A stretch of DNA of 54,205 nucleotides, from assembly GCA_946413245.1 (NCBI GenBank), contig CAMKJS010000011.1, positions 1 through 54,205 of the forward strand, read 5' to 3'. Position 1 is the stretch's first letter, and each line of letters starts with the position of its first letter. The DNA comes from an uncultured Clostridia bacterium (GTDB lineage Bacteria; Bacillota; Clostridia; Christensenellales; Aristaeellaceae). The notes under the pieces are model-generated. The model was given only the letters and a program-made list of their open reading frames with translations. It was not told the origin of the DNA and made no database searches. Below are positions 16,392 to 43,112 of this stretch, one piece after another. The position numbers were made by a program, and so were the translations under genes.

Positions 16392-16815
16392 GGGCATGAC
16401 GGTCAGCGGATGGAAACGCCTGTTTTCCCCGGGCTGCGCGGCGCTGCCGCGGTTGTCGGCCCTGGCGGACGCGGTGCTGCGGCAGGCGGAGGATCTGGCG
16501 GCCGCCGCGGCCGCGATCGGGGCCTGTTTTGGCCTTGAGACAGCAAAAGGCGCCCAGCTGGACTTGCTGGGCGCCTCTCTCAATCTGTACCGGGCGGAAA
16601 CCGCCCCCGGCGCGGCCGACGCCGCGTTCCGGGAAGCGATCCGCTCCCGGCTGGCGCTGCGGCGGTGGGACGGAACCTGCGGATCCCTCCGGCCCCTTCT
16701 GGAAGCCGCCGGGATGCAGGGTCCTTATGAAGATCACATGGATATGACGGTATCGGCGCCTGCGGGGGCGCCGGTGCCGGCGGGAATTCAGTTGGTTCCG
16801 AACAGCTCCAGATAG
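16381..16815 (+). CDS. DUF2612 baseplate protein, probably 3'-truncated
   Basis: A 144-residue protein that starts at TTG 16381 (GGAGGG upstream) inside the baseplate-J gene. It has the KGAQLDLLGASLNLYR motif typical of DUF2612/gp48-like wedge proteins, followed by FREAIRSRLALRRWDGT. Relatives that I recall are longer. The last residues (QLVPNSSR) are encoded by the antisense of the convergent lyase gene. Tail-fibre genes should follow but do not, so the gene probably runs out at a deletion junction. Confidence 0.75.
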   Translation: MAYEGMTVSGWKRLFSPGCAALPRLSALADAVLRQAEDLAAAAAAIGACFGLETAKGAQLDLLGASLNLYRAETAPGAADAAFREAIRSRLALRRWDGTCGSLRPLLEAAGMQGPYEDHMDMTVSAPAGAPVPAGIQLVPNSSR

Positions 16816-17930
16816 CTGTGCTTGTTCTCGATGACCCCATAAGCTTCGGCCCGGGCCACCAGGCGCTCCGCCCAGAGGTGGTGCGGGCCGATCTCGTTCA
16901 TCTTGTTGGCGTTGCCGCTCTTGACGACGCCGCCGGAAGCGCCCAGCACCTGCAGGGCGTCCTCGTACTCCTCCCGGGTCACCGCCAGAATCCCGTTCAC
17001 ATAGTTGATATGGCTCGGATGGATGATCGTTTTGCCGATGAAGCCGTTGGCCTTGTCCAGGATCAGTTCCCGCATGAGGCCGTCCACCTCGGCGCTGACC
17101 AGCGGCTCCCGGCGCATCAGAGATTCCTGGATATTGACCTTGGGCAGCTCCTGGAAGCGCATGCTCTTTTTCGCCTTGAAATACTCCCACACCGGACCGG
17201 AGATCACGTAATCCCCGTCCCGGGAAAAGACGTTCAGGATATCCATAAGAATATCCCGGACGGTCATGATGTCGTAAATCGTGTACTCCACGTCCCGGCG
17301 GGCGCCGAAGCAGGCGGAGAAGTCCGTCGCGCCGACCCGGACGTTCAGCACCAGATCCCGGTATCGGTCCAGGATCGCCTTGATGCCCAGCAGCTCGGTC
17401 ATGCGGGTTTCCTTCATGGCCACCGTCCGGTCCTCGATGATGGGCATGCCGTACAGAATTTCGCCGAACCGGTCGTTCAGCTCCCGCAGGAAGGCGTAAT
17501 AGGCCTCGCCGTTCTCCGCGTTGAACTTCGGAAAATTGAAACCTGCGAGCACCTTCATGTGCTCCGGCTTCAGCATGGAAGCAAAGTGCCGGAACTGTTC
17601 CATGTTCCGGACCCGGAAGATCAGCAGCGGCAGATCCGCGTAGGTGATCTCCCCTTTTTCCAGCTTTTCCGCCAGGACGTCCAGCATATGCACGCTGTTT
17701 TCCTCCGCCCGGGGCACGTCCTCCAGCCGGCAGGCATCCTCGAAGCACATGACCATGGCCGTGAGCCCGGGATACTTGCGGGTGAGAATCGCTTCCGTGA
17801 AATCCCGGTGGCCGGGCATGTACATGGTCGCGCCCAGGCAGTACTGCAGCACGTTCCTGTCGGTATATTTGTTAAACTCCACCGGATCCTTCACAAAATG
17901 AAAATCCGGGTTGTACAGATGATGCCTCAT
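16788..17930 (-). CDS. HpcH/HpaI-citrate lyase family aldolase (lyase A)
   Basis: A 380-residue TIM-barrel C-C lyase. It has FNFPKFNAENG, GEILYGMPIIED, YVISGPVWEYF and NGFIGKTIIHPSHINYVNG, the last being the Asp/His-rich end of the citrate-lyase beta type. It is a close paralogue of lyase B at 35877. Such enzymes make or break C-C bonds next to a carboxylate, with Mg2+; the substrate is unknown. It is the last gene of an operon with an ATP-grasp ligase, PrpD and a dehydrogenase. Its final 28 bases overlap the prophage gene. Confidence 0.85.
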   Translation of the reverse strand: MRHHLYNPDFHFVKDPVEFNKYTDRNVLQYCLGATMYMPGHRDFTEAILTRKYPGLTAMVMCFEDACRLEDVPRAEENSVHMLDVLAEKLEKGEITYADLPLLIFRVRNMEQFRHFASMLKPEHMKVLAGFNFPKFNAENGEAYYAFLRELNDRFGEILYGMPIIEDRTVAMKETRMTELLGIKAILDRYRDLVLNVRVGATDFSACFGARRDVEYTIYDIMTVRDILMDILNVFSRDGDYVISGPVWEYFKAKKSMRFQELPKVNIQESLMRREPLVSAEVDGLMRELILDKANGFIGKTIIHPSHINYVNGILAVTREEYEDALQVLGASGGVVKSGNANKMNEIGPHHLWAERLVARAEAYGVIENKHSYLELFGTN

Positions 17931-17950
17931 CGGCGCCGCCTCCGCTTCCG

Positions 17951-19165
17951 TTACATCAGATCCATGCGCACAAGATTGTTCCCGTCCCTGTCCAGCACCT
18001 TCAGGTTCGCCAGCGCGGTATCGTATTTCTTCAGGAGCTTTTCGTAATCGTCGTCCTGCACGAAGAAGCCCGCGGCCCGGTCCCCGTTGCTGTTGATTCC
18101 CTTAAACTGATGTCCTTTCTCCCGGACCAGGTAATACCGGGAGATGACGCCCTGCGCCTTCATTTCCTCAAAGCCCTCGTACCGGTCCATCACGCCCTGG
18201 CTGCAGTAGAGATAGCAGGTCATCAGATACCGGTTTTCCGGCTTCACCTCTCCGACCTCGGGCACGATCCCCTCGTGCAGATCCACGATCGCCCTGATGG
18301 GATCGAAGCCGGACATGATTTTCGTGATCTCGTATTTGACGAATCCGCCGCTCCGGGCGCAGAATTCCAGGGCGTAGGCGTGCTCCCCGTCCGAGATCAT
18401 CTGCATGTTGATCGGCGTGTTCTCCAGATGGAAGGCGTCCGCGATCTTCTGGGTCGTCTCGCTGATCTCCCGCTCCAGCTCCGGGGAGATATCCGCCGGA
18501 TAAAGGCTTCCGTAGGCCACGAAGCGGCCGTTCTTCAGCTTGTGCTTGCTGCCGATGCAGAGCACGACGGCCTTTCCGCGGCTGACGAAGGCTTCCACGG
18601 TCAGCTCCTCGCCCTCCACGAATTCCTCCACCACCGCGGTTTTCGACCGGCTGATCTGAATGGCTTCCTCCAGATAGGCCCGCACCTCCTCCGGATTCGC
18701 GCACTTGCGCACGCCGCGGGAGCTGTATGCGTCCACCGGCTTGACCACCAGCGGATACCGCAGGCCTTCCAGCTTCTCCGGCTCATAGCGGTCCAGCACC
18801 GTATAATGAGAGGTGGGAATCCCGCTGCGCATGAAGACGTCCTTCATATAGTGCTTGTCCGACACCAGCCGCGCGGTCTCCAGATCCAGATAGGTGGGCA
18901 GGCCCAGCGCTTCGCAGACCTCCACCTCCGCCAGAATGATCTGATCCGCGCAGGCAGTGAGCACCAGGTCGATCTTCTGCTCCTTCACCAGCGCCTTGAT
19001 TCCCTCCACGTCCATGGCGGATACCAGATGGAATTCGTCGCAGGCTTTCGCGGCCACGCAGGCGGGGTTCATGTCCGCCAGCAGCGTCCGGTATCCCCTG
19101 CGCTTCAGTTCCTCAATCAGGGCTACCTGGGCGATGCCGCCCGCCAGTACCAGGGCTTTTTTCAT
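17951..19165 (-). CDS. ATP-grasp carboxylate ligase
   Basis: A 404-residue protein with an N-terminal pre-ATP-grasp domain (MKKALVLAGGIAQVALIEEL), an ATP-binding lysine in YPLVVKPVDAYSSRGV, and a metal-binding segment YALEFCARSGG. It is of the carbamoyl-phosphate-synthase-like (CarB) ATP-grasp type, which joins a carboxylate to an amine through an acyl phosphate. ATG 19165 overlaps the PrpD stop and is preceded by AGGAGG. Substrates are not evident. It may couple an acid made by its neighbours to an amino compound. Confidence 0.85.
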   Translation of the reverse strand: MKKALVLAGGIAQVALIEELKRRGYRTLLADMNPACVAAKACDEFHLVSAMDVEGIKALVKEQKIDLVLTACADQIILAEVEVCEALGLPTYLDLETARLVSDKHYMKDVFMRSGIPTSHYTVLDRYEPEKLEGLRYPLVVKPVDAYSSRGVRKCANPEEVRAYLEEAIQISRSKTAVVEEFVEGEELTVEAFVSRGKAVVLCIGSKHKLKNGRFVAYGSLYPADISPELEREISETTQKIADAFHLENTPINMQMISDGEHAYALEFCARSGGFVKYEITKIMSGFDPIRAIVDLHEGIVPEVGEVKPENRYLMTCYLYCSQGVMDRYEGFEEMKAQGVISRYYLVREKGHQFKGINSNGDRAAGFFVQDDDYEKLLKKYDTALANLKVLDRDGNNLVRMDLM

Positions 19166-20427
19166 GTGCTGCCTCCTGATTCGTGCTGTTTCGCGTATTC
19201 AAGGAGCATCCGGTTTTTCTCCGCCAGTTCCTCCGGGGTCATGGGATTTTCCGGCTCCCCTTTGGCATAGTCCACGCGGCGTTCGCGTACGGAGCCGTCC
19301 TTCAGGAACACCCGTACCGACGCAACCCGTTTCTGCGGGCTCTCCGCCGTCAGAGCCGGATCCTCCGTAACCCGGACCCGTTTCGCCAGCTCCGCGGTTT
19401 CCCCGTCCAGCGGCTCGAAGGCCGCCAGGTCCGCCCGGCCCCGGAGCAGGCCCGCTGCCACCGCGTAGGGCGTGCTCAGCTTCGCCGAGGCGACGCCCCG
19501 GATCTCCGTATGATCGTGCCCCCGGACCCCGAGCCGGTAAGTACGCACCTCCACGCGGTCGATCTCCGCCGGGTCGATTTCCCCATGCAGCCGGATGGCC
19601 GCCTCCACCGCGGAGTGGCTGTGACGGCAGGATGCGTAGGGTTTCACATAGATCCGCTCTATTTCCCAGGGGCCGTTCTGGTTCAGCAGCTTCTCCGGGT
19701 CGAAAGCGTCCGCGAAGGTCCGGAAGAAGCCCCGGTCTCCGCCCAGCATGTCCTCCGGCGGCTCGAACGCCGCCCAACCCATCGCCGCGGCCGCGTACCC
19801 GTCCATGGCAGCCCGGCCGAGGTTCCAGGGCTTGAGCTCCGAACCCTGCTCCTGAATCTCCAGCATGCCTGCCGCGCTGCCGGCCGCGCAGGCCAGAACC
19901 CGGCACAGCCGCGCCTTATCCGTTCCCAGGGCGAAGGCCGTCCCGACAGCGGATCCGATCGTGCCGCAGGTGCCGGCGGTATGATAGCCCCGGTTCTTGT
20001 GGGAGGGCTGCATGGCGACCGCCGTTCTGCAGGCCGCCTCGTATCCCAGGACAATTCCGGTGAGGAACGCTTCCTCCCCGACAGGGTGCTCGTCCGCCGC
20101 CGCCCGGATCGCGGAAATGACAGAAGCGCCCAGATGAATCATGGCAAACCGCTGCCCGTCATCCAGCTCCAGCGCGTGCGCGTTGAAGCCGTTGATCAGG
20201 GCGGCGGTTTTTCCGTCCGTGCGCTCCGGATAGCCGATGAGCTCCGCCGCCCCGGCAGGAGCGCGCCGCAGCAGCGGCTCCCAACGCTCCCGGTTCTTCA
20301 CGGCCCCGGCGGCTGTGACGGCGAGATAATCCTGCCGGCAGGCTTCCGCCTTCCGCAGAACCGCCTCCGGAATCCCGGCCGCCCGATCCAGCAGATACTC
20401 CGCGAAGGCTTCGGTGACATTCAGCAT
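19162..20427 (-). CDS. MmgE/PrpD family dehydratase or decarboxylase
   Basis: A 421-residue protein of the 2-methylcitrate dehydratase / cis-aconitate decarboxylase superfamily. Visible signatures are NAHALELDDGQRF, LGYEAACRTAVAM and HTAGTCGTIGSAVGTAFALG, followed by AYASCRHSHSAVEAAI-type residues (KPYASCRHSHS). Members dehydrate citrate-like acids or decarboxylate aconitate. The gene lies between the dehydrogenase and the ATP-grasp gene with tight spacing, so all four products probably act on one tricarboxylate-like compound. Confidence 0.85.
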   Translation of the reverse strand: MLNVTEAFAEYLLDRAAGIPEAVLRKAEACRQDYLAVTAAGAVKNRERWEPLLRRAPAGAAELIGYPERTDGKTAALINGFNAHALELDDGQRFAMIHLGASVISAIRAAADEHPVGEEAFLTGIVLGYEAACRTAVAMQPSHKNRGYHTAGTCGTIGSAVGTAFALGTDKARLCRVLACAAGSAAGMLEIQEQGSELKPWNLGRAAMDGYAAAAMGWAAFEPPEDMLGGDRGFFRTFADAFDPEKLLNQNGPWEIERIYVKPYASCRHSHSAVEAAIRLHGEIDPAEIDRVEVRTYRLGVRGHDHTEIRGVASAKLSTPYAVAAGLLRGRADLAAFEPLDGETAELAKRVRVTEDPALTAESPQKRVASVRVFLKDGSVRERRVDYAKGEPENPMTPEELAEKNRMLLEYAKQHESGGST

Positions 20428-20447
20428 ATTGTTTTAACTCCCCGTTC

Positions 20448-21416
20448 TTACAAATACCGGTGAGGTTCGATTTCCTCCAGCTTTCCCTGCTCGAACAGGG
20501 CGATATTCCGGAAGGCGTCGTGCATCATGGCCCGGAAAGAATCGTAGGTCACCCCGGCGATATGGGGCGTGAGGATCACGTTTTCGATCTCCTTCAGGGG
20601 ATAATCCTCCGGAATCGGCTCCCGGGCATGCACGTCCAGGGCCGCGTACGCCAGCTTTCCGCTCCGCAGCGCTTCCGCCACGGCGTCCGTATCCACAATC
20701 TGTCCCCGGGCCGTGTTCACCAGCACGGCGCCTTCCTTCATGTGGGCCACCGTATCCCGGTTGATCAGGTTCCGGGTTTCCGGAGTCAGGGAACAGTGGA
20801 CCGTGACCACGTCGGAACGCTCCAGCAGCTCCGTCAGGGATACGAAGGTCAGCCCTTTTTCCGCCTCGAACTCCGGTTCTGCCTGGGTACGGCTGTTGTA
20901 GAGGATATTCACCCGGAAAGGCTGCAGCAGGTTCACCAGCTTGCGGGCAATATTTCCCATGCCGATCACGCCCACGGTCTTCCCCCGCAGCTCCGCGGTC
21001 TGCACGCCCTGCTCCTGTTTTTTCCAGATTCCTTCCTTCGTCCGCCGGCTGACCGTGGGCAGCTTCCGCAGGCAGGCCAGAATCAGCATCAGGGCCTGCT
21101 CCGAAGCGCTCTCGGCGTTAACCCCCTGGTTGACGTACAGCGGAATTCCCTTCTCCCGGATCGCGTCCAGATCCAGCGTGTCCAGGCCCACGCCGGAACG
21201 CTGAATCATCACCAGGCGGGATGCCTTCTCCAGCACCGCCCGCGTGATCTTCAGCCGGCCTCCGGCCAGAATATAATCCGCCTCCCCGGCCCGACGCTCC
21301 AGCGCCTCCTGGGTCTGTTCCTCCAGAAACTGAATCCGGAAGCCCTCCGGCACCACGCTTTGCACGATCTCCAGGGGAGCGCCTGTGTACTGATTCGTCA
21401 GCAGTATTGTTTTCAC
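20448..21416 (-). CDS. D-2-hydroxyacid dehydrogenase, NAD-dependent
   Basis: A 322-residue enzyme of the phosphoglycerate dehydrogenase-like group. It has the NAD site VGVIGMGNIARKL and the catalytic triad regions NTARGQIVD (Arg), HAREPIPEDYPL (Glu) and ILTPHIAGVT (His). It lacks the C-terminal ACT domain of SerA. It starts at GTG 21416 behind GAGGAG. It would interconvert a 2-keto acid and a D-2-hydroxy acid in the pathway of the following three genes. Confidence 0.9.
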   Translation of the reverse strand: MKTILLTNQYTGAPLEIVQSVVPEGFRIQFLEEQTQEALERRAGEADYILAGGRLKITRAVLEKASRLVMIQRSGVGLDTLDLDAIREKGIPLYVNQGVNAESASEQALMLILACLRKLPTVSRRTKEGIWKKQEQGVQTAELRGKTVGVIGMGNIARKLVNLLQPFRVNILYNSRTQAEPEFEAEKGLTFVSLTELLERSDVVTVHCSLTPETRNLINRDTVAHMKEGAVLVNTARGQIVDTDAVAEALRSGKLAYAALDVHAREPIPEDYPLKEIENVILTPHIAGVTYDSFRAMMHDAFRNIALFEQGKLEEIEPHRYL

Positions 21417-21456: not shown

Positions 21457-22614
21457 TTATTCTTCCTTCCGCACGCCCGTCGCCCGCAGCAGCGCGCCCA
21501 GCACGCCCAGCAGCGTACCCCGCAGGGTCCAGGCTGCGCACAGATCCGCCAGCGTCGTCAGGCGGGTGCGGTACACAGAGGAAACTGCCGCTTTTTGCAG
21601 CAGCGCTTCAGCGGTGGCGGCAATCGCCGCGGGGCTCGCCAGGGCCTCAGGCACCCAGTCCGTGAAGACGTACAGCGGCGCGGCCGCAAGACGCAGCAGG
21701 CCCCAGGCTGCCGCCAGCCCCAGCGACGCCATCAGCGGCACAGCCGCCAGACGCAGGCGGGTTTTGCCTGAAAGCCGCGTCCAGTACCGGATCTGCAGCT
21801 CCTGTCGAAGGTCCGCGATCCAGCCCCGTGTCCGCCGTACACCCCGGCGGATCAGCCGGGACAGCAGCCGGATCCCCAGCGCCAGGGCGACCGCCCACAG
21901 GGGCAGAAGAATCCTTGCCCGGAGCCGCCGGGCAGAGACCACCGTGGCGGAAGCAGACCAGGCCGTGACGGTCTTTTCAAAGGCGGCGGTCTCCTCGGCG
22001 CTGCCGCCCAGGGCATGAATCTCCAGGGTCTCCGGAGCGATCTTTCCCGTGTCTGCCAGGGAAATGGGAACAAACACCAGCAGGGCATCCGTCTCACCCG
22101 GCCGGAAGCCGCCCTCGGTGACGCCCACCACTTCCAGGGCCGTGTCTCCCAGCGTCAGCGTCTGCCCCAACGGTTCCACCCCGGGATACAGCTGATCCGC
22201 CGCCGCCCGGTTAATCACCGCCGAGGGCAGGCAGGACGCCTTGTCCTCCGCGGAAATCAGTCGGCCGGATACCAGCGTTTCATGGGCGAAATCAAAATAG
22301 CTTTCCTCCACGGCGTACACCGTGGCCCGGTCCGCGCCGGCCCGGTCGGAAGCCACCCGGACCCCCTGCTGCCGCAGGGCCGCCGCCCACCGGAACCCCT
22401 CCAGGCGTTCCCGCAGATCGCTGAGCTGAACGGAGATGGGTTTATCCGGCCCGGAAGCCGGCGCAGGCAGCGCCGCCTGAAGCCGGTCCGGAATGCCGCG
22501 CATTCCCCAAAGCCCGGCGGCGACCAGCGCCGCGCCCAGCAGCATCAGGAAAAGGCCGCCCCTTCTCCGTTTCCGGGCGCCTGCCGCCCGCTTTTCCTGT
22601 TTTTCCATGTTCAC
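21457..22614 (-). CDS. MacB-like membrane protein
   Basis: A 385-residue protein with one N-terminal membrane segment (residues about 20-38), an extracytoplasmic domain to about 230, then further hydrophobic segments near 235-255, 290-315 and 360-380. The outside domain resembles the MacB periplasmic core (PSAVINRAAADQLYPGVEPLGQTLTLGDTALEVVGV). GTG 22614 overlaps the upstream stop as GTGA and has no Shine-Dalgarno, implying translational coupling. The ATPase half of a MacB system is absent. It could act with the HlyD-like adaptor before it. Confidence 0.7.
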   Translation of the reverse strand: MNMEKQEKRAAGARKRRRGGLFLMLLGAALVAAGLWGMRGIPDRLQAALPAPASGPDKPISVQLSDLRERLEGFRWAAALRQQGVRVASDRAGADRATVYAVEESYFDFAHETLVSGRLISAEDKASCLPSAVINRAAADQLYPGVEPLGQTLTLGDTALEVVGVTEGGFRPGETDALLVFVPISLADTGKIAPETLEIHALGGSAEETAAFEKTVTAWSASATVVSARRLRARILLPLWAVALALGIRLLSRLIRRGVRRTRGWIADLRQELQIRYWTRLSGKTRLRLAAVPLMASLGLAAAWGLLRLAAAPLYVFTDWVPEALASPAAIAATAEALLQKAAVSSVYRTRLTTLADLCAAWTLRGTLLGVLGALLRATGVRKEE

Positions 22615-23969
22615 GAACCGCTGCTGTAGGGCATGACCTCACACCCCTCGGACAGCGGCCGGTCCTCCATATACACGATTTCCTCGTTCCGCAGGCTTTC
22701 CTCCAGGGACGCCGCGGATGCGGACTGGCCAAGCACGGTCACGGACTTCCTGACCACGGTGATCTTCTCGTTCCGGAAGGAATCGTTCTCCCGGCGGGTC
22801 ACATAGATGAAATAGTCCCCTTCCGCGCCCCGCAGCGCGCTGACAGGGATCAGGGTCGTCGCGTTTTCGGCGGTCAGAACGATTTCCGCCGTAACGGATC
22901 CGGACTCCGTCATGGCTGCCGCCCCACCCAGGAGGCCGATATCTCCCCGGCGCAGCCGGACGTCCGCATATAAGCTGCCGTCCGCGGCAATGCCCTGCCC
23001 GGTGATCGCCGCGTCCGCGGTTTTCCCGCCGACGCTGAGGGTCACCGCCGTTCCCGCCGGAATGGTCCTGCGGGCACCGGACGCGTCCAGGCGAACCGCC
23101 GGCTCCGCCCCCTCCGCGGTCATCCACACCACGGCGCCGCCCCGGGAAACCGTATCCCCGGCTTTGGTCTCCGCAGCCGTCACATATCCGTCGTGCGGCG
23201 CGGTGACCGCGGCAGCCCGTTCCTTCAGCAGCTGCAGGTCCGCCATCCGGGCGGAAAGGGACGCCAGTTCCTTCTCCAGCTCCGACTTCTTGCTCAGATA
23301 GTTCACCACGTCTTCGGGGATCGGGTACCGGCTGAGGCTGTCGAACGCGCGGGATGCTTCCGCTGTTTCCCGCCGGGCGGCCTCCAGGACGTCCCGGGCT
23401 TCCACCAGCAGACCCGCGGCTTCGGTGTCCGGCAGGGTCTCCGGCACCGAATCGTCTTCCTCCAGGGCGACCCCCGCCTGCCAGGCCCGCAGCCGCAAAG
23501 TCTGCAGTGCCTCCTGCTCCGCCAGGGCGGCGTCCCGCAGCCGGGAATAGCCGGCATACCACTCCTCCTGCTGGGGAGTCAGGCGTACGCCGCTGTTTTT
23601 CCACTGCAGTTCCAGGGCTTCCTTCTCCTTGCCCGCGAAGGATTCCTTCAGAGCGGCCATGCGGCTGTCGTAGTCGGCCACCTCGCATTCCGCCAGGCAG
23701 TCCCCGGCCAGAACCCAGGCGCCGGCGGAAACGTTCACCCTGCGGACGATCAGCGTATCGTCCCCGGTCATGTTCTCCGGGATGACGGCCTCGGTCTCCG
23801 GCCAGTGAAGCGCTCCCGTGAGGCGCACCCTGGTTTCCAGGCGCCCGGTGCGGGCGGAGACGGTGCGCACCTTCGCGGTGGAGAGGGTGTGGAGAGTGCC
23901 GGAAAAGAATACGCACAGCAGCACGATTCCACCCAGCACCAGCAGACCCTTTAAGGCAATCCTTTTCAT
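22611..23969 (-). CDS. HlyD/RND-type membrane fusion protein
   Basis: A 452-residue adaptor. It has an N-terminal membrane anchor (KGLLVLGGIVLLCVFFSGTL), then a lipoyl/beta-barrel start (VRTVSARTGRLETRV). A long Ala/Glu-rich coiled coil spans about residues 100-260. The second lipoyl half is TAPHDGYVTAAETKAGDTVS, followed by barrel and membrane-proximal domains. I chose ATG 23969 (AGAGGAAAAATCG upstream); the frame is open further. It is the second adaptor in this operon and precedes the MacB-like gene, as in YknXYZ-type systems. Confidence 0.8.
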   Translation of the reverse strand: MKRIALKGLLVLGGIVLLCVFFSGTLHTLSTAKVRTVSARTGRLETRVRLTGALHWPETEAVIPENMTGDDTLIVRRVNVSAGAWVLAGDCLAECEVADYDSRMAALKESFAGKEKEALELQWKNSGVRLTPQQEEWYAGYSRLRDAALAEQEALQTLRLRAWQAGVALEEDDSVPETLPDTEAAGLLVEARDVLEAARRETAEASRAFDSLSRYPIPEDVVNYLSKKSELEKELASLSARMADLQLLKERAAAVTAPHDGYVTAAETKAGDTVSRGGAVVWMTAEGAEPAVRLDASGARRTIPAGTAVTLSVGGKTADAAITGQGIAADGSLYADVRLRRGDIGLLGGAAAMTESGSVTAEIVLTAENATTLIPVSALRGAEGDYFIYVTRRENDSFRNEKITVVRKSVTVLGQSASAASLEESLRNEEIVYMEDRPLSEGCEVMPYSSGS

Positions 23970-24007
23970 TCGATTTTTCCTCTGTCGTACAACTCCGAAA
24001 TAATCGC

Positions 24008-24080
24008 AAGAGTGGAGTTTGGAGAGTGGAGAGTGGAGATTCAATTCTCAACTCTTAACTCTTCACTCTCACCTCTCACC
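24008..24080. repeat. GAGAGTG-type heptamer array, inverted pair
   Basis: On the + strand GGAGAGTGGAGAGTGGAG is followed by CTCAACTCTTAACTCTTCAC, so the array reads into its own approximate complement. The TGA stop of the permease gene (24076-24078) is within the array. It is related to the array at 14333 in the prophage. Confidence 0.8.
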
Positions 24081-24945
24081 TTAAGTCCGCAACTCTGATT
24101 CCCTCCATGATATCCTCCTGGAAGAAGAGATAAACGAACAGGGAAGGCAGGATGAAGAGGGCGGCGCCGGCAAACTCGATGCCGGACATGTTCCGGGTGA
24201 GCTGGCCAAAAGCCACGGAAAGGGGATACAGATCGCTGCGGGAGGTGAGATAGGTCAGGGGCTGCTCCACCAGATTCCAGCTCTCCGCGAAGGAGAGAGC
24301 CGCCATCGTGCCCAGCACGGGGCGGCTCATGGGAATCACGATGCGGAGAAAGCACTTGAGTGGTCCGGCGCTGTCGATCTGGGCAGCCTCAATGATTTCA
24401 GCCGGAATGCCCAGCATATACTGGCGCAGCAGAAAAGCGAAGAAGGGGGCTGACAGCATGGGCAGAACGATCGCCCAGGGCGTGTTCAGCAGATTCAGGG
24501 CCCGGAGAGTCAGCACGCTGGGCACCATGGTCACCTGGAAGGGCAGCACCATCAGCAGCACGATCCCGAAAGCCAGCGCGTCCCGCCCCCGGAAGCGGAA
24601 GCAGGAAAGGCCGTAGGCCAGGGCCGGAAGCGCCAGCAGCTGCCCCGCCAGAATGCCGGCGGTGTACAGCACGGAATTGATGAAATACCGCAGAATTTCC
24701 CGGTCCGTAATCAGCACCCGGTAAAACTGCATGAGAGAGACGGTTTCCGGAATCAGGCGCAGCGCCATGAAGGAATCCGCCGTATACCGGTTGCGGGTAC
24801 CCATATAGGCCCGGATCTCCTCCGGGGAGAAAAAGGCGTACAGCAGGGTAACCGCGATGGGCAGCAGCAGCAGCACCGCGATCAGGCTCAGCAGCAGCCG
24901 GGCCGGCACATGGCGGCCGCGCAGCCTCCGGACAGACGCTTGCAT
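24076..24945 (-). CDS. Sugar-type ABC transporter permease (MalG/YurM-like)
   Basis: A 289-residue permease with six predicted membrane segments and the EAA loop EIIEAAQIDSAGPLKCFLRIVIP-like (centre EAAQIDSAGPLKCFLRIV). It pairs with the permease encoded 12 bases upstream. Together they would form the pore of a carbohydrate-uptake type 1 ABC transporter. No ATPase gene is in the operon, so a shared MsmX-like ATPase encoded elsewhere is likely. Its stop codon lies in a heptamer repeat. Confidence 0.9.
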   Translation of the reverse strand: MQASVRRLRGRHVPARLLLSLIAVLLLLPIAVTLLYAFFSPEEIRAYMGTRNRYTADSFMALRLIPETVSLMQFYRVLITDREILRYFINSVLYTAGILAGQLLALPALAYGLSCFRFRGRDALAFGIVLLMVLPFQVTMVPSVLTLRALNLLNTPWAIVLPMLSAPFFAFLLRQYMLGIPAEIIEAAQIDSAGPLKCFLRIVIPMSRPVLGTMAALSFAESWNLVEQPLTYLTSRSDLYPLSVAFGQLTRNMSGIEFAGAALFILPSLFVYLFFQEDIMEGIRVADLR

Positions 24946-24957
24946 CGACCCGCCCCC

Positions 24958-25812: not shown

Positions 25813-25823
25813 CGTGAACCTCG

Positions 25824-26918: not shown

Positions 26919-26961
26919 TTTCCGGGCCTCCTTCTTCTTCAAGTCTGGTCTGCCTGAATCA

Positions 26962-32899: not shown

Positions 32900-32913
32900 G
32901 TTTTTTCTCCTTC

Positions 32914-34490: not shown

Positions 34491-35348
34491 CTATAATTCC
34501 ACAGTGGCAATCCGGGGCTCGAAGCAGCAGGCCGGCCGCAGGCACACCACCCGCACGCCGGAGGCACGCTGGGGTCCGATCTTCAGGAACGTGGCCAGCA
34601 CGCTGACTCCGCCTCCCAGGCCCAGCGGACCGATGCCCGCCTCATTGACCCGGCGGGTGATTTCCCGCTCCATGTCGCTCTGCACATCGTAGCGGCCGTC
34701 CGTCTGCGCCTCCAGCATCCGGGCCGCGGCTTCGAAGTGAGAGCGGCCGATGCCCACCGCCAGGGTGCAGGGGGAGCAGCCCAGCTGGGCTACGCTCTCT
34801 TTGGCCCAGGCCACGATTTCGTCCAGCACCACGGCGGTGCTGTGCCGGTGGAACACCCGATAGGTTTTGCCGCGGATCGCGGGCCCGCCGCCGAACATAA
34901 GTACATGCAGGCGGATTCCCGGCGCCGGACTCCGGCGCAGCAGGATCGGCGCAGGCTCCACGCCCGCGCTGTCCGGGTTCAGCCCGCCGCTCTGATCCAG
35001 GCGGGCGGAATCGTTCCCCATAATTCCCATCGGCCGGCCGGGCAGTTTCCGCAGTCCCTGCGCCACGCCTTCCCGGATTGCGTCCAGCATACGGCCGGTA
35101 ACAGCCGCGTCCTCCCCGATTTCCAGCACCAGATGGGGGATTCCCGTATCGTCGCACAGCGGGCTCTGGTTTTTCTCCGCGGTCTCCGCGTTTTCCAGCA
35201 CGGTTTCCAGCACCCACTTCGCCCGGGGATTCGTTTCGCCGGCGATGGCGCAGCGGTACGCTTCCTTTTTATCGGGGCGGAAGGCGGAACCCGCCCGCAC
35301 CAGCGTATCCCGCACCAGCGCCGTGATCTCCTCACTGCTCCTTGTCAT
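34491..35348 (-). CDS. Class I fumarase/tartrate dehydratase alpha subunit-like
   Basis: A 285-residue iron-sulphur hydro-lyase subunit. Three cysteine regions fit the [4Fe-4S] ligands: C65 (SPLCDDTGIP), C191 (LGCSPC) and C274/C275 (RPACCFEP). The GIGRSHFEAA stretch is also family-like. With the beta subunit just upstream it would add or remove water from fumarate, malate, tartrate or an analogue. It starts at ATG 35348 behind GAAGGAG, overlapping the beta gene by 17 bases. In this cluster it may act on a phosphonate or organic acid precursor. Confidence 0.85.
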   Translation of the reverse strand: MTRSSEEITALVRDTLVRAGSAFRPDKKEAYRCAIAGETNPRAKWVLETVLENAETAEKNQSPLCDDTGIPHLVLEIGEDAAVTGRMLDAIREGVAQGLRKLPGRPMGIMGNDSARLDQSGGLNPDSAGVEPAPILLRRSPAPGIRLHVLMFGGGPAIRGKTYRVFHRHSTAVVLDEIVAWAKESVAQLGCSPCTLAVGIGRSHFEAAARMLEAQTDGRYDVQSDMEREITRRVNEAGIGPLGLGGGVSVLATFLKIGPQRASGVRVVCLRPACCFEPRIATVEL

Positions 35349-35850
35349 AGATACTCCTTCCGTGGGCCGCGCCGATGATCGCCGGATACCGGTCCGCCCG
35401 AATCAGATACAGGGCTTCCATGCCCAGTTCCGGGAACGCCAGCACCTTCCGCTCCAGCGTTTTCGCTTCCAGCAGCGCCGTAACCGGCGGGATCACCGCG
35501 TACACCGCGTTATACCGGTCCAGCGCGGCCACGGTCTCCGGGTGCAGGGCACCCTTGCCCAGATGCAGCTTCACGCCCGCCGCGGACAGCGGCGCGATGG
35601 AGCTCTCGATTTCCAGCTTGTTGGAAGAGGTCGGTCCCACCCCCGCGGGGCTCACCGCCGTATGAAAGATCACCTGGCCCCGGAGATCGGCGCCCAGTTC
35701 CCCGGCCCGGCCTTCCTCAATCAGGCGCAGCACCTTCGGCAGCACGGCGTCCCGGCCGCAGAGGATATATCCGGTGATTTCCACCGCGTCCCCGACCTGA
35801 AGATCCTCCGCCGCCTCTTCCGAAATAGGCGTAGTCAGTTGTTTCGGCAT
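35332..35850 (-). CDS. Class I fumarase/tartrate dehydratase beta subunit-like
   Basis: A 172-residue protein with family hallmarks EITGYILCGRDAVLPK and AGVGPTSSNKLEIE (GPTxS motif), and the C-terminal LAFPELGMEALYLI. The beta subunit holds part of the active site of class I fumarases. Here beta comes before alpha; alpha first is the more usual order. The genes overlap, so subunits are probably made in equal amounts. Confidence 0.85.
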   Translation of the reverse strand: MPKQLTTPISEEAAEDLQVGDAVEITGYILCGRDAVLPKVLRLIEEGRAGELGADLRGQVIFHTAVSPAGVGPTSSNKLEIESSIAPLSAAGVKLHLGKGALHPETVAALDRYNAVYAVIPPVTALLEAKTLERKVLAFPELGMEALYLIRADRYPAIIGAAHGRSIYDKEQ

Positions 35851-35876: not shown

Positions 35877-37022
35877 TCACTCTTCCACGGCGAACAGCTT
35901 CACGTAAGCGCCTTCGTTCTCGATCACACCGAAGGCCCGGGCCCGGTTCAGCACCTTGTTCGCCCAGTTGGTGTGCGGTTTGACTTCGTTCATCTTGTTC
36001 CCGCCGGTGCCCTTGACCACGCCGCCGCCGGTGCCCAGAATCTGGCAGGCGTCGTCGTACTCTTCCTTCGTCACGGCCATCATGGCGTTGACGAATTTCA
36101 CGTGGGTGGGATGAATCACGGTGCGGCCCACGAAGCCGTTGGCCTTGTCCAGAATTACCTCCCGGAGCAGTCCGTCGATCTCGTTGTTCACCAGGGCCTT
36201 GCGGCGCATGAGGTAGTCCTCGATGCCGTGCTTGGGCAGCTCGTCAAACATCATGGACTTCGGTGCGCGGAAGTATTCCCACACGGGACCGGAGATCACA
36301 TAATCGTTGTTGCGGCCGCAGACGTTGATGATGTCGCACAGGCATTCCCGCACCGCCATAATGTCGTAAATGGAGTAATCCACGCCGCGGCGCACGCCGA
36401 ACACGGAGGAGAAGTCCGTGCCGCCGACGCGGACCTGGAGCACCAGGTGGCGGTACTTGTCCAGAATCTTCTTGATGCCCGTGAGTTCGTACATCCGGGT
36501 TTCCTTGTAGGCAACCTCCGGATCCTCGATAATGGGCATGCCATAGATGATCTCCCCGAAGCGGTCGTTCAGATCCTGCAGATAAGCATAGTATTCATAT
36601 CCGTTTTCCGCGTTGAACTTGGGGAAGTTGATGCCGCACAGGGAGCGTACCTGGTTTTTCGTCAGGCCCTCGCCGAAGTGCTTGAACTGCTCCAGGTTCC
36701 GGATCCGGACGAAGATCAGCGGGACCTTGTCCTTATCCAGGGTGCCGTCGTTCACGGCGTTGGTCACGGTGTCCAGCAGCTTATGGATGTTTTCCTCGGC
36801 CTCCGGCACCTTCTCCTCGGGGCAGGCGTCCTCGCAGCACAGCACGATGGTGGTCAGGCCGGGCATCGCGTTGCTGAGGATCTTCGGGGCGAAGTCCTTG
36901 AAGCCGGGCATGTACATGGCGGCGCCCAGGCAGTACTGCAGGAGCTCGCGGTCGGTATACTTGTCGAAGCTTTCGGGGTCACGGACGAACTTGAAATCGG
37001 GATTGTACTGATGGTGTCTCAT
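35877..37022 (-). CDS. HpcH/HpaI-citrate lyase family aldolase (lyase B)
   Basis: A 381-residue paralogue of lyase A, similar along its full length by eye. Shared stretches include MRHHxYNPDFxFV, FPKFNAENG, YGMPIIED, YVISGPVWEYF and the NGFxGxTxIHPxH segment. The main differences are in residues about 70-120. It precedes the fumarase-like pair and follows the U32-like gene, with spacers of 19-26 bases. A C-C lyase or synthase role is likely; the substrate is unknown. The double set suggests two related steps or two substrates. Confidence 0.85.
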   Translation of the reverse strand: MRHHQYNPDFKFVRDPESFDKYTDRELLQYCLGAAMYMPGFKDFAPKILSNAMPGLTTIVLCCEDACPEEKVPEAEENIHKLLDTVTNAVNDGTLDKDKVPLIFVRIRNLEQFKHFGEGLTKNQVRSLCGINFPKFNAENGYEYYAYLQDLNDRFGEIIYGMPIIEDPEVAYKETRMYELTGIKKILDKYRHLVLQVRVGGTDFSSVFGVRRGVDYSIYDIMAVRECLCDIINVCGRNNDYVISGPVWEYFRAPKSMMFDELPKHGIEDYLMRRKALVNNEIDGLLREVILDKANGFVGRTVIHPTHVKFVNAMMAVTKEEYDDACQILGTGGGVVKGTGGNKMNEVKPHTNWANKVLNRARAFGVIENEGAYVKLFAVEE

Positions 37023-37040
37023 GGGGATTTCCTTTCTTTT

Positions 37041-37937
37041 TTACTTCATTCTCGGCGACCAGACCGCCTCGGGATAATACTCGTCAATCACGCGCTTCAC
37101 CAGAACACACTGCTTGGCGCGCTTGCGGGCGTCGTCCTCGGTGCTGTCCCAGCTGTGGGTGGCGGCCACGGAGCCGCCGGTCTTGAGATAAATCGGCGCG
37201 GCGATCCGGATCATTTCCGGCACCTCATAGTGACGGATGAAACCGCCGGTGGATTTGGGATTCTCCGTATGGATGTCGATGGGGCAGTCCACCGCCTGGC
37301 GCATGGCCGCCAGCATCTGCAGCTGAATATCCCGGACGGGATTGATGGAGTCCGCGCCGATGGATTCCAGCAGCTTCGCCGAGCAGGGATTGCCGTGGCC
37401 CGCGTGGGCGGACACCTTGAAATGGCAGTCCTCCGGGATTTCCCCGGCCTGGCGCATCTGATTCAGAATCCAGAGGCAGCCCTCGTCGTACACGAGGAAA
37501 CCCCGGCAGCCCAGCCGGGCCGCGCGCTTCACGTCCTCAATGGCCCGGACGATCTGTTCCTGTCCCCGCAGGCGGTAGCCCATGCGCACGCCCTCCTCCG
37601 TGTTGACGGAAGCGGAGGTGTCCGTGGTGGCCCGGGGGCCGATGGCCAGAATCAGGTCGGTGCGCCATTCCTTTGCCAGCTCCACCATCTTCGCGATTTC
37701 CGCGTCGGTCAGGCGCATGATGCCCTGGGTCTGCGTCACCCGGTGCAGATACAGGCCGTATCCGTCCATCGCCTCCAGCAGCGCCCGCATCACCTTCGGT
37801 CCCTGAATGCCGGGCACCTCGAAGCGGTACTGGCCGCCGTCCTCAAAGCGTTTCGCGGAGGTGGGCAGATCGTAGGCGTCCCCTCCCGGCAGCCCGACCG
37901 AGGTCAGAAACGCCCGGGTTTTTTCCATGCTGTTCAT
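37041..37937 (-). CDS. Peptidase U32-like TIM-barrel protein
   Basis: A 298-residue protein; I chose ATG 37937 (AAAGGAAAAC upstream). The open frame starts 21 codons earlier. Repeated strand-helix units (LILAIGPRAT, CRGFLVYDEGC, HFKVSAHAGHGNPCSAKLLE, CPIDIHTENPKSTGG) indicate a TIM barrel, with His, Asp and Glu at strand ends. The nearest family I recall is U32 peptidase-like; such proteins are often not proteases. It sits between phosphonopyruvate decarboxylase and lyase B, so it may act on a small phosphonate or organic acid. Confidence 0.6.
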   Translation of the reverse strand: MNSMEKTRAFLTSVGLPGGDAYDLPTSAKRFEDGGQYRFEVPGIQGPKVMRALLEAMDGYGLYLHRVTQTQGIMRLTDAEIAKMVELAKEWRTDLILAIGPRATTDTSASVNTEEGVRMGYRLRGQEQIVRAIEDVKRAARLGCRGFLVYDEGCLWILNQMRQAGEIPEDCHFKVSAHAGHGNPCSAKLLESIGADSINPVRDIQLQMLAAMRQAVDCPIDIHTENPKSTGGFIRHYEVPEMIRIAAPIYLKTGGSVAATHSWDSTEDDARKRAKQCVLVKRVIDEYYPEAVWSPRMK

Positions 37938-38032
37938 GTTTTCTGTTTTCCTTTCTCCCGATTTCTTCGGGGTTCCGTCCTTATCGTTCATCCCGTTCAT
38001 CTGCCTGGGCAGATCAGTCAGTTCCCTCTATG

Positions 38033-39160
38033 TCATGGTTTCTGCAGGGTTTCCCGCAGGGCGTCCGCCGCTTCCCGGTGGTTGAATTCCAGCGGCGGAA
38101 GCCTGCCGCTCAGTCCCTTGTGAATCCGGCAGTCGATCAGCGCCGCCTGCCCTCCGCCCCGCAGAAGGGCGATCTGCTCGATCAGCTCCGGTCCGTTCTC
38201 CGCCGGCTTTCCGGCTGTCCGGTAGCCGCAGCCTTCCGCGATCCGGACGAAATCCACCAGCTGGCCCGCGGAGGGCTGCCCGCCCACAGACTCGTGCACG
38301 CCGTTGTTCAGCACCACGTGCAGCAGGTTCGGCGCCCGCAGCTTGCTGACCATGGTCCAGGCGCCCAGATGCATCAGGGAAGCGCTGTCCCCGTCCAGCA
38401 CGACCACCGGGCAGTCCGGCTTCTGCAGGGCGATGCCAAGCGCCACGCTGGAGCAGTGCCCCATGGAACCCACGTTCAGGAAATCCCGGGCCTTGCTCTC
38501 TCCCCGGCGCTCCCGCAGAAAAAACAGCTCCCGGGTAGCCCGGCCGGTTGTGGCGCAGAAGACGGTGTCCGCCGGCATCTGATCCAGCAGGATTTCGATG
38601 GCCTGCTCCCGGCTCAGGGGATATTTCTCATCCAGGCTGTTGGCCTTTTCCCCGGCCATAACCCCCTTCGGCGCGATCAGAGCGAAGGGCCGGCGATGTT
38701 CCCGGCACCAGGCGGCCGCCTGCTCCGCGGTACGGTCGAAGTCCTCCGCGTCGTCCTTCAGCACCGCGTGGGGGATATGCATCAGCTCCAGCAGGCCGGG
38801 AGTGATCTCCCCCTGGGTCGTGTGCTGCGGCCAGTCTCCGGTGCCCGGCTGTCCGCGCCATCCGATCAGCAGCAGCATGGGTACCGCGTATACATGCTCG
38901 TCCGCCAGGGAAACCAGCGGGTTGACCGCGTTGCCCAGGCCGCTGTTCTGCATGTACACCAGGGGCAGCTCCCCGCCGGCGAGCCAGTGGCCCGCGGCGA
39001 TACCCACCGCGTTGCCCTCGTTGGCGGCGATGACGTTCCGCTCCGGAAAATGCGCCAGCGCGTAGTTGCAGAAGCCATTCAGATAGGAATCCGGCACACC
39101 GGTGAAGAAAGTGACTCCCACCCGCGCCAGGGTGCCGAACACCCGTTTTTGATCCAGCAT
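38033..39160 (-). CDS. ppd: Phosphonopyruvate decarboxylase
   Basis: A 375-residue thiamine-diphosphate enzyme that converts phosphonopyruvate to phosphonoacetaldehyde and makes the PEP mutase step irreversible. It has FTGVPDSYLNGF (21-25 GVPDS), catalytic-type Glu48 in AANEGNAVGIAAG, and the cofactor motif GDSASLMHLGAW...NN (257-286). NNGVHESVGGQPS is typical of this family rather than of sulfopyruvate decarboxylase. It is seven bases from the reductase gene and in the same operon as the PEP mutase fusion. Confidence 0.88.
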   Translation of the reverse strand: MLDQKRVFGTLARVGVTFFTGVPDSYLNGFCNYALAHFPERNVIAANEGNAVGIAAGHWLAGGELPLVYMQNSGLGNAVNPLVSLADEHVYAVPMLLLIGWRGQPGTGDWPQHTTQGEITPGLLELMHIPHAVLKDDAEDFDRTAEQAAAWCREHRRPFALIAPKGVMAGEKANSLDEKYPLSREQAIEILLDQMPADTVFCATTGRATRELFFLRERRGESKARDFLNVGSMGHCSSVALGIALQKPDCPVVVLDGDSASLMHLGAWTMVSKLRAPNLLHVVLNNGVHESVGGQPSAGQLVDFVRIAEGCGYRTAGKPAENGPELIEQIALLRGGGQAALIDCRIHKGLSGRLPPLEFNHREAADALRETLQKP

Positions 39161-39166
39161 AATCCT

Positions 39167-40132
39167 CTATTCCTTTGTTTTTTTCTGATAAAGCGTAAAA
39201 TATTCCGGGCTGTCCGGCCGGGCCGTATTCCAGGCCCGGTCAAAGACGGGCAGAAGCTCTTCCGGCAGCGGGCCGGCCTGCCCGGCTTCCAGGTTCTGCC
39301 GGAGATGACGCAGGCTGGAAGCGCCGATAATCACCGCGTCCCCCCGCTCCGCGGAGAGCATGGAATGATGCGTGAGCCAGCGGTATACCGCCTCTGTCAG
39401 GGAAAGCCCCGCCCGTTCCGACGCTTCCCGCAGCAGCTCCGCGGCTTCAAAGAAGCTCCGCTTCCAGTACCGCTGCTGATAGTTCGGCCGATGGGTAAAG
39501 CGGCCGTCCGACGGCGTTTCCTCAAAGCTGCGGTAGCGGCCGGTCAGCAGGCCCCCCGCCAGCGGGTTATAGGCGTTGAACCGCATGCCGAAGCGGTTCA
39601 GGCAGGCGTTCAGCTCCCGCTCCGCCGTACGCGTCAGGGGATTGTAGATCCCTTCATAAACCGTGGGTTTCACCCAGCCCCGGGCTTCACAGATGCGCCA
39701 GACGTCCGCCGCCATCCACGCGGGAAAGTTCGAAAGCCCCAGCTCCCGGAATTTTCCCTGGCCGTGCATTTCCGCCATGGCGGAGAGCACGTCCTCCACC
39801 GGCGTGGCAGGATCCGGGAAGTGCAGATACACCTTATCCGCGCAGTCGATCCGCAGCCGGCGCAGGCTCTCGTTCAGCTGCATGCGGGCGGCGTCCCCGT
39901 CCAGGCGGCCGGTAATCCGCGGATTCACCTTGGTGGCGATCCGCACCGGCTGCTTCAGCTCCGCCAGGGCCTCCCCCAGCAGGGTCTCGCAGGCGCCTTC
40001 GTTATACACATAGGCCGTATCCAGCTCCCGGCCCCCGGCTGCCGTATAGGTTTCCAGGAACTCCCGCACCTCCGGGGCAAACACGCTCTCGCCGAAGGTC
40101 ATGGTGCCCAGGATCATTTCCACTCGCTTCAT
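39167..40132 (-). CDS. Aldo-keto reductase (AKR7-like)
   Basis: A 321-residue NADPH-type reductase with the catalytic tetrad D38, Y43, K68 and H104 (RELDTAYVYNEG, ATKV, VYLHFPD). It resembles the AKR7 aldehyde reductases, some of which reduce succinic semialdehyde. It is encoded just upstream of phosphonopyruvate decarboxylase in the transcript. Reduction of phosphonoacetaldehyde to 2-hydroxyethylphosphonate is a reasonable guess. Confidence 0.8.
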   Translation of the reverse strand: MKRVEMILGTMTFGESVFAPEVREFLETYTAAGGRELDTAYVYNEGACETLLGEALAELKQPVRIATKVNPRITGRLDGDAARMQLNESLRRLRIDCADKVYLHFPDPATPVEDVLSAMAEMHGQGKFRELGLSNFPAWMAADVWRICEARGWVKPTVYEGIYNPLTRTAERELNACLNRFGMRFNAYNPLAGGLLTGRYRSFEETPSDGRFTHRPNYQQRYWKRSFFEAAELLREASERAGLSLTEAVYRWLTHHSMLSAERGDAVIIGASSLRHLRQNLEAGQAGPLPEELLPVFDRAWNTARPDSPEYFTLYQKKTKE

Positions 40133-40151
40133 CTGTCCTTTTCCATCCGTT

Positions 40152-41315: not shown

Positions 41316-41327
41316 CGGTTGTTTCCT

Positions 41328-43112
41328 TCACTCTTCGTCGCCGGATTCCACCTCATAGACACGAATCCGGTAAGGATAACCTTCCTTTTCAAAGGTATTC
41401 AGCAGCTTCAGGCCGGACTTTTCCGGCTTCTCGATCTCCACGCCGGAGAAAATGTATTCACAGCCCAGGGCCCGGAGCGCTTCCGGGTTCAGCGCCAGCT
41501 TTTTGATGACGGTGTCGTCTTCCTTCGTGAAGAAATAGGATTTGCCCAGCTCCGCCGAAAACAGATAGCAGCGGTTGCCCCACTCGTCGAAATAGGTGCG
41601 GACGCTCTTTTTCTTCTTCAGCTCCCCTTCAATAGCCTCCCGGAAGGCGTGCTTGTATTCCACGTCATAGTTGTTGGAATACCCGTCGACACACTGAAAG
41701 CCGTTCAGCAGCGGCACCGAGGAATACAGCCCCACGCTGCCGACCCGGTAGCTGTCCTTCGGACGGCCGATGTATTCGTCGATTTCCTCGAAGAGCTCCC
41801 GGCTGACAAAGGTCCGGAAGGAAGAGCTCGCGGTTTCCTCCACCCCCGCGGACAGGCGCCGCAGGTTCTCCTTCAGCGGGCTCACGTCGTACACGTTCAC
41901 CGCGGCGGAACAGATCAGCAGCCCGCAGAGCACACGGGCGGCAATCCGCCCCGTCCTGACCGCGGACGCCCGCCGGGCCGCCGCTTCCCGCCGGGCCGGG
42001 GCCTCCGGTCCCAGCGGTTCCCGGCGGCACAGGCTCCACAGCAGCTGCAGCGTCAGCCCCGCCGCGGTCCACCAGGCCAGGGGATTCAGCCAGAAAAAGC
42101 GCTCGAAGCGGAAATGCAGGAAGGGCCCGCCGATGGCGGCGCGCAGGGAAATCACCGGCGCGCTGCGCCACGTGGCGTAGATCACCGCGACTCCGGCAGC
42201 CAGCAGCGTCATCGCCCACAGCCGGCGAAGCGTCTCCCGCCGGGCCGGATCCCACAGCTCCGGAAACAGAAGCCCAACCCCGCAGGCCGCCAGGACCCAC
42301 CCGGTCAGCGGTCCCTGGGAGGCCTCCGCGTGATAGACGCCCTCGTTGAACATGCTCTTGACCGTATCCCACCAGGGATCCGGAGTCAGGACCCATTCCG
42401 ACCGGTGGGTGACAAAAGCGCCGCCCCCGAAAAGCTGCTTCACCAGATTCAGGTTCAGCGCGACGTACACCGCCGCCAGCACCCCCAGCATCAGGGCGGA
42501 AGCCCAGGGCCGCGGCTTTTTCCGCACCGCGTCCGTGACGCACCATCCGGCCAGCAGCAAACAGTCCGCGTAGCCCACCAGCACCGGGGAGGAAAAGGCG
42601 GCGAAAAGCGCGCCCAGGGCATAAGGCCAGACTTTTTTTCCGTCCCGGGCCATCAGCACGGCGTAAAGCAGCAGGGGCTGCCCCATCACCGCCAGCCCGT
42701 ATACGGAATAGAACGGCAGCAGCGTAAACAGCAGCGCCAACACCGCCGACACCCAGGGCGCCGCCTCCAGCCGCCGCAGCAGCAGGAAAAGGCCGAGGAA
42801 AGCCGCCAGCCGCACGAAGCATTCGTTGAGCACGAAGGCCAGCGCCGGCTCCGCCGCCCGGTAGAACAGCAGCGTGCCCGGTGACGCCGGCGCCAGGGAC
42901 GCCTTGTTGTTTTCCCCGCTCATGAACTCCGGGATATCCGCGTCCCCCGCGTGCAGGGTCTGCAGAACATAAGCCGGAATCTCTCCGTCCAGCTGATCGT
43001 GCGCCCGGACGTAGGCCTGATCCCGCAGGATCAGGGACGGAATCATGGAAAGGAGGAGAAGCGCCAGCGAAAGAAAAAACGCCAGATGCTTCCCGTGCGC
43101 CTTCAGGTTCAC
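41328..43112 (-). CDS. DUF6044-like multi-spanning membrane protein
   Basis: A 594-residue protein with about 11 membrane segments in the first two thirds and a soluble C-terminal domain. The N-terminal loop AYVRAHDQLDGEIPAYV resembles the HDxLD motif of DUF6044 proteins, found in Gram-positive polysaccharide clusters. That layout is shared by GT-C glycosyltransferases. It starts at GTG 43112 behind AAAGGAGCGGG. It may transfer a sugar or modifier outside the membrane. Confidence 0.7.
   Translation of the reverse strand: MNLKAHGKHLAFFLSLALLLLSMIPSLILRDQAYVRAHDQLDGEIPAYVLQTLHAGDADIPEFMSGENNKASLAPASPGTLLFYRAAEPALAFVLNECFVRLAAFLGLFLLLRRLEAAPWVSAVLALLFTLLPFYSVYGLAVMGQPLLLYAVLMARDGKKVWPYALGALFAAFSSPVLVGYADCLLLAGWCVTDAVRKKPRPWASALMLGVLAAVYVALNLNLVKQLFGGGAFVTHRSEWVLTPDPWWDTVKSMFNEGVYHAEASQGPLTGWVLAACGVGLLFPELWDPARRETLRRLWAMTLLAAGVAVIYATWRSAPVISLRAAIGGPFLHFRFERFFWLNPLAWWTAAGLTLQLLWSLCRREPLGPEAPARREAAARRASAVRTGRIAARVLCGLLICSAAVNVYDVSPLKENLRRLSAGVEETASSSFRTFVSRELFEEIDEYIGRPKDSYRVGSVGLYSSVPLLNGFQCVDGYSNNYDVEYKHAFREAIEGELKKKKSVRTYFDEWGNRCYLFSAELGKSYFFTKEDDTVIKKLALNPEALRALGCEYIFSGVEIEKPEKSGLKLLNTFEKEGYPYRIRVYEVESGDEE

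Follow-up and report, generated by a model that had tools for sequence, protein, structure and literature searches.

The 54,205-base contig analysed here (G000:C11, taken in its entirety and called the window below) belongs to a genome of 3.23 Mb in 134 contigs that is 78.6% complete. On the reading that we favour, and hold with moderate confidence, a surface-glycan gene cluster in the window contains an organic-acid module in both of its versions, with a phosphonate as a separate, neighbouring decoration. The module joins a core – a U32-like protein, two fumarase-type subunits, FumA and FumB, and usually PrpD – and a CitE-like lyase to one of two endings, either a 2-hydroxyacid dehydrogenase or a decarboxylase dependent on thiamine pyrophosphate (TPP) accompanied by an aldo-keto reductase (AKR). 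All the enzymes that the initial annotation of this DNA had named are present on the minus strand, about where it had placed them. The genes of the module in the window are:

16788–17930, minus strand: lyase A, a PF15617 CitE-like C–C bond lyase of the dehydrogenase-type module (Pfam, 370.5 bits; lyase tree)
17951–19165, minus strand: ATP-grasp ligase (ligA) of the dehydrogenase-type module (ATP-grasp_4, 62.8 bits)
19162–20427, minus strand: MmgE/PrpD protein, PrpD below (Pfam)
20448–21416, minus strand: D-2-hydroxyacid dehydrogenase, HADH (Pfam; conserved residues)
34491–35348, minus strand: FumA, fumarase-type alpha subunit, class I, core (Pfam, 161 bits)
35332–35850, minus strand: FumB, fumarase-type beta subunit, core (Pfam, 63.5 bits)
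35877–37022, minus strand: lyase B, a PF15617 CitE-like lyase of the decarboxylase-type module (Pfam, 379.8 bits; fold model)
37041–38000, minus strand: U32-like protein, a putative triose-phosphate isomerase (TIM) barrel, core (relatives; weak TIM-barrel model)
38033–39160, minus strand: TPP-dependent 2-oxoacid decarboxylase, operon-type paralogue of phosphonopyruvate decarboxylase (TIGR03297; tree clade)
39167–40132, minus strand: AKR (Pfam, 194 bits; conserved residues)

Relatives were sought in genome contigs with lyases A and B, a scan seeded by two short peptide patterns from near the N-terminus and hence confined to close relatives. It gave 47 lyase loci, to which one locus with the full set, G095 (L015/L179), was added from a 398-genome sample of the phylum. 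With window proteins as tblastn queries, the U32-like protein was found in 42 loci (L032–L054, L061–L078 and L179). Module loci span Bacillota, Bacteroidota, Lentisphaerota, Kiritimatiellota and Actinomycetota, mostly as gut and rumen anaerobes. Recurrence of the gene set across five phyla is more than chance would give, and the set can be treated as a single module, conserved and widely distributed.

What varies is the ending. TPP decarboxylase and AKR accompany the U32-like protein in 27 of the 42 loci; another 13 have a 2-hydroxyacid dehydrogenase instead, of the HADH family in nine and of the unrelated Ldh_2 family in four (one assigned by Pfam PF02615, in L064, and three by likeness to the L064 copy). 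None has both endings and two have neither – L078, a contig of 4.2 kb, and L050, with U32, lyase and FumAB only – which gives the either/or pattern a Fisher value of 4e-9, kinship being ignored. FumA and FumB are both present in all 13 dehydrogenase-type and in 23 of the 27 decarboxylase-type loci, and PrpD in 11 and 25, respectively, with short contigs accounting for many of the misses. The usual decarboxylase-type order is PrpD–AKR–decarboxylase–U32–lyase–FumB–FumA; in L043 an asparagine-synthase-type amide-forming enzyme (5301–6824) lies between PrpD and AKR, and a member of that protein cluster occurs in L040 as well. The window alone combines both endings, with two lyases, one U32 and one FumAB, and only one U32-like gene was found in its genome at the completeness given above. 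As HADH and Ldh_2 are unrelated yet occupy the same place, they would seem to do the same job, namely reduction of a 2-oxoacid, and decarboxylation followed by reduction would be an alternative fate of the same kind of compound.

The lyases follow these endings. The initial annotation was right to see two paralogous citrate-lyase-like aldolases: both match PF15617 end to end (cut-off 28.4 bits) and they are 61% identical. In the lyase tree – from which the fragment in L077 was omitted – clade A (support 99/96) unites the 13 lyases of dehydrogenase-type loci with window lyase A, whose nearest rows (L068, L076 and L064) all have Ldh_2, and clade B (99/97) holds 25 decarboxylase-type lyases, that of L050, window lyase B and six lone lyases; the decarboxylase-type L179 falls outside both. 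The lone lyases, from Ruminococcus albus and its kin (L055–L060), occur without the rest of the module, and the U32-like protein was not found in any of their six genomes. The U32 tree, by comparison, mixes the two types: its dehydrogenase-type rows need at least three changes, and the U32 of L038/L039 (decarboxylase-type) groups with that of L072 (dehydrogenase-type) at 99/81. In the FumA tree such rows need six changes, only two of them forced by well-supported branches. Because the lyase clades track the ending and the U32 and FumA trees do not, it seems that the core can be exchanged between types, with the lyase staying with its ending. A third PF15617 match in the genome (G000:C17:18953–19324) is weak and partial, at 31.3 bits.

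From these patterns we infer a pathway, including its direction and the order of its steps. The shared core – the U32-like TIM barrel, FumAB and probably PrpD – would make a common 2-oxoacid, perhaps one that also carries a carboxylate at C3. The D-2-hydroxyacid dehydrogenase of branch A would convert it to a 2-hydroxyacid, and in branch B the TPP decarboxylase would yield an aldehyde for the AKR to reduce to an alcohol. Each branch comes with a CitE-like lyase of its own and probably also with a separate ATP-grasp ligase, an enzyme that would attach the acid to a glycan amino group. A fusion protein with a phosphoenolpyruvate (PEP) mutase domain would make a phosphonate, passed to LicD as a separate decoration. 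The scheme thus also draws on the following genes:

29931–31940, minus strand: PEP mutase fused to nucleoside triphosphate transferase and cytidylyltransferase (Pfam, TIGR02320, motif)
31982–33115, minus strand: LicD-type phosphotransferase (Pfam LicD, 122.8 bits)
48999–50156, minus strand: second ATP-grasp protein, ATPg2 (ATP-grasp matches)

Several of the proposed steps can be set against the single enzymes. At least 95% conservation is seen for Arg237, Glu266 and His285 of HADH (10 rows) and for Asp38, Tyr43, Lys68 and His104 of AKR (27 rows), which we take to be catalytic residues, as well as for Cys65, Cys191 and Cys274 of FumA (38 rows), presumably ligands of a [4Fe-4S] cluster; FumA thus has the three cysteine ligands of a class I fumarase-type hydro-lyase. 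The nearest structures in the PDB are 4dim and the L-amino acid ligase 3vot for ligA, and Bacillus subtilis IRG1 (E 1e-31) and iminodisuccinate epimerase (E 1e-25) for PrpD. ATPg2 is a possible, if weak, candidate for the ligase of the decarboxylase-type branch, judging by a relative in the decarboxylase-type locus L063 (50% identical over 82% of the length); a 35% relative in the dehydrogenase-type locus L073 weakens that assignment.

A confident model (pLDDT 89.7) gives lyase B the fold of lyases of coenzyme A (CoA) esters, its best Foldseek matches being CLYBL, citramalyl-CoA lyase and malyl-CoA lyase (5vxo, 5vxc, 8khl and 4l9y among them). It resembles these enzymes and CitE in the predicted fold and in the alignment of the IHP-motif region; it differs in that the structural matches are only 12–19% identical and that the stretch 254–274 is modelled with low confidence. 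Of the window's minus-strand genes, those scanned with Pfam include neither a CoA-ligase nor a CoA-transferase. The PF15617 lyase family has been linked to Ter operons, and Pfam's description of PF15632, an ATP-grasp family, refers to a Ter-operon pathway. With other PF15617 lyases those of the window share the Pfam family and a nearby ATP-grasp gene, but full-length members sampled elsewhere in the phylum are 36–45% identical, and the five included in the lyase tree diverge outside the module rows.

The U32-like protein is 70–91% identical to 23 relatives and has no significant match by sequence in Pfam, NCBIfam or the PDB; nor did PDB searches by sequence and by profile give anything useful. 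A peptidase identity was rejected, the best Pfam match, Peptidase_U32 (PF01136), reaching 12.7 bits (E 0.079) against a cut-off of 22.4. Foldseek returned TIM-barrel matches for its predicted model and, as that model is weak (pLDDT 69), these were not used to name a reaction.

The phosphonate alternative deserves the closest weighing. The PEP mutase protein scores 402.8 bits with TIGR02320 (cut-off 319.55) and carries an EDKxxxxxNS motif together with PF12804, PF01467 and PF13714 in one chain, and the decarboxylase scores 400.9 bits with TIGR03297 (cut-off 312.5). That the two share the window's cluster favours a pathway in which the enzymes resembling those of the tricarboxylic acid cycle would take phosphonopyruvate, or aldol products made from it, as substrates, in the manner of the FR-900098 and phosphinothricin routes. 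Part of the genome survey points the same way: PEP mutase, called by TIGR02320 above the cut-off in genomes that may be incomplete, so that absences are soft, occurs in 14 of the 47 relatives' genomes, among them 9 of the 27 lyase-B genomes (L032–L054, L061–L063 and L077; Fisher p 3e-6) and 4 of the 6 lone-lyase genomes, against 15 of 397 genomes in the phylum sample (16 of 398 with the window's own). These two groups speak for the initial annotation's proposal. Of the 14 lyase-A genomes (L064–L076, and L078, where no more of the lyase is left than a stub of 25 residues), one has the mutase (not enriched, p 0.43); the lyase A operon is thus found mostly in genomes without PEP mutase, which the initial annotation itself had named as evidence against its proposal, and 18 of the 27 lyase-B genomes also lack a mutase above the cut-off. 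Acetatifactor muris DSM 23669 and Sporofaciens musculi are cultured species that carry the decarboxylase-type module and have no mutase above the cut-off. Around the lyase, in up to 10 kb on each side and often less, PEP mutase is absent from all 47 loci.

The decarboxylases separate in the same sense. In 13 of the 14 genomes with PEP mutase, another decarboxylase is encoded no more than about 4 kb from it; in the fourteenth, G407, the mutase is at a contig edge. Those of ten such loci (L130–L139) are 40–47% identical to the window's, as against 50–72% for the operon decarboxylases of 26 module loci and 46% for that of L179. A split with 100/100 support divides the 27 operon copies and the window's from 14 PEP-mutase-adjacent ones plus a second copy in the window's genome, and 19 positions are fixed and different between the sets (at least 90% and 85%, gaps aside, without L179). 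The second copy, on another contig (G000:C7:57779–58855), could serve the PEP mutase fusion. In its stretch (L129, G000:C7) it is held in a 794-codon frame at 9768–12152 on the minus strand, the first 430 residues of which have no Pfam match; an alpha-mannosidase gene is present there and PEP mutase is not. By neighbourhood, genome co-occurrence and decarboxylase tree, membership of the module in a phosphonate pathway was rejected as the leading reading, and we now consider it improbable. The PEP mutase fusion probably belongs to a separate phosphonate pathway beside the module, with the LicD-type phosphotransferase probably as its partner, although the window's operon decarboxylase may also help that pathway. 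Of the initial proposal of a phosphonate or organic-acid pathway, it is the organic-acid part that stands, as a conserved module beside glycan-type genes in 27 of 42 loci.

That last count also bears on whether the product is a glycan decoration at all. The window's cluster occupies the minus strand between 54084 and 16788 and includes NeuB, NeuA-HAD, a LegC-type aminotransferase, a PIG-L deacetylase, a sugar transferase, Wzx, Wzy, polysialyltransferase-like and pyruvyltransferase-like proteins, and LicD. Sixteen glycan-type queries, 12 from the window and four from module loci, found matches near all 13 dehydrogenase-type loci, 13 of the 27 decarboxylase-type loci and L078, and none in L050, the six lone-lyase loci or 19 remoter U32 loci. 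The last come from a U32 profile that matched 32 of the 398 genomes; 20 stretches were examined, one being the module locus L179. Some have FumA and FumB matches within about 6 kb of U32 (L160, L161, L162, L164, L167 and L169), and their neighbour clusters – each named from the Pfam match of one member – include malic enzyme (7), Ldh_2 (5), TctC (5), sigma-54 regulators (6) and aldehyde ferredoxin oxidoreductase (4). TRAP/TctC transporters and 2-hydroxyacid dehydrogenases accompany these relatives; in L170 the genes for a dehydrogenase, U32 and a 2-oxoacid dehydrogenase complex follow one another, and near the U32 of L174 are genes for flavin-linked (FAD) oxidases that, we assume, resemble glycolate oxidase. 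Judged by gene content, such loci look like systems for the uptake and breakdown of hydroxy acids, and their neighbourhoods place U32 near 2-oxoacids, aldehydes and C4-dicarboxylates.

This catabolic look would suit a pathway for a free metabolite, an organic acid that is fermented, taken up or exported by genes lying only sometimes beside glycan genes. So would the LysR regulator adjoining L052, the 14 decarboxylase-type loci without glycan matches and the DctM transporter near five of these. We regard such a pathway as unlikely, given the glycan-type neighbours of all dehydrogenase-type and about half of the decarboxylase-type loci and of none of the remoter ones, in whose 19 loci no lyase match was found at 1e-5. 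A sulfonate pathway, in which the 2-oxoacid would be sulfopyruvate and the products sulfolactate (branch A) or isethionate (branch B), could draw on the decarboxylase's matches to sulfopyruvate decarboxylase models (86.7 and 79.4 bits) and on two remoter loci whose Ldh_2 comes closest to L-sulfolactate dehydrogenase (313 and 336 bits against a cut-off of 500). It would leave FumAB, PrpD and the lyase without a clear role, and no sulfite-fixing gene is among the Pfam-scanned window genes, the rest of the genome not having been searched; we think it highly improbable. The glycan-bound organic-acid module remains the reading we prefer, and several observations weigh against it: the PEP mutase enrichment in lyase-B genomes; the poor model of the U32-like protein; the lone clade-B lyases in six genomes without U32, which imply that the lyase can have another partner; and the 14 decarboxylase-type loci without a match to the glycan queries used, several of them on short contigs and five (L037, L046, L048, L052 and L054) near a DctM transporter. 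Moreover, four of the glycan queries themselves came from module loci, and in the dehydrogenase-type loci L068 and L073 the sole glycan-type match is a sugar-transfer ATP-grasp protein.

Known systems overlap with the window only in part. Among the phosphonyl tailoring (Pnt) clusters described by Rice et al. (2019, PMC6697681), PEP mutase–cytidylyltransferase fusions occur, and triple fusions number 42, or 2.8% of 1485 Ppm proteins. The window's triple fusion of PF12804, PF01467 and Ppm with its LicD gene is of the kind reported there, whereas the relatives' lyase/U32/FumAB module stands apart from PEP mutase and the window decarboxylase is of another clade. That decarboxylase shares the TPP family of phosphonopyruvate and sulfopyruvate decarboxylases and exceeds the TIGR03297 cut-off, but the operon copies form their own clade, mostly in genomes without PEP mutase.

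Coding-type third-position GC marks frames on the plus strand at about 1063–16391 and on the minus strand at 54084–16788. The AKR, the ABC/HlyD-type export genes and the prophage structural genes were absent from the initial annotation. The glycan cluster, whose end on the minus strand is at 16788, directly adjoins the phage genes (1063–16391, plus strand); five of eight scanned phage-side proteins have Pfam matches (terminase, DUF2213, major capsid, DUF3383 and Baseplate_J). Between the two operons (21457–29280, minus strand) lie genes for a MacB-like protein, two BPD_transp_1 proteins, HlyD and two proteins without Pfam match, which look like an export system.

Beyond chromosomal contigs, 17 pattern matches for U32 relatives in viral contigs yielded none that was confirmed, and plasmid records contain four remote relatives (34–46% identical). 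Two annotated plasmid records label theirs 'U32 family peptidase' and have no comparable operon, and the records of the other two list no features around them. On an Enterobacter plasmid (L184, 6907–16870) a remote relative (35%) is found beside an aminotransferase, an oxidoreductase, an iron-containing redox enzyme, an M14 peptidase and a transporter of the major facilitator superfamily, a row that resembles a small-molecule cluster.

We tentatively suggest, as a broader claim more doubtful than not, that this is an undescribed, horizontally shared pathway of gut and rumen bacteria built around a TIM-barrel family, making an acid new to bacterial glycans, with interchangeable endings that bring their own CitE-like lyases and an ATP-grasp tie to the surface polysaccharide; a description of the operon was not recognised in the open-licence PubMed Central literature, judged without full texts. 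If so, a strongly conserved enzyme family with peptidase-annotated relatives would in fact be metabolic and serve to decorate glycans, the label 'phosphonopyruvate decarboxylase' would mislead for some genes of gut bacteria, and the either/or endings would predict two related acids – an aid to reading the surface chemistry of gut and rumen bacteria.

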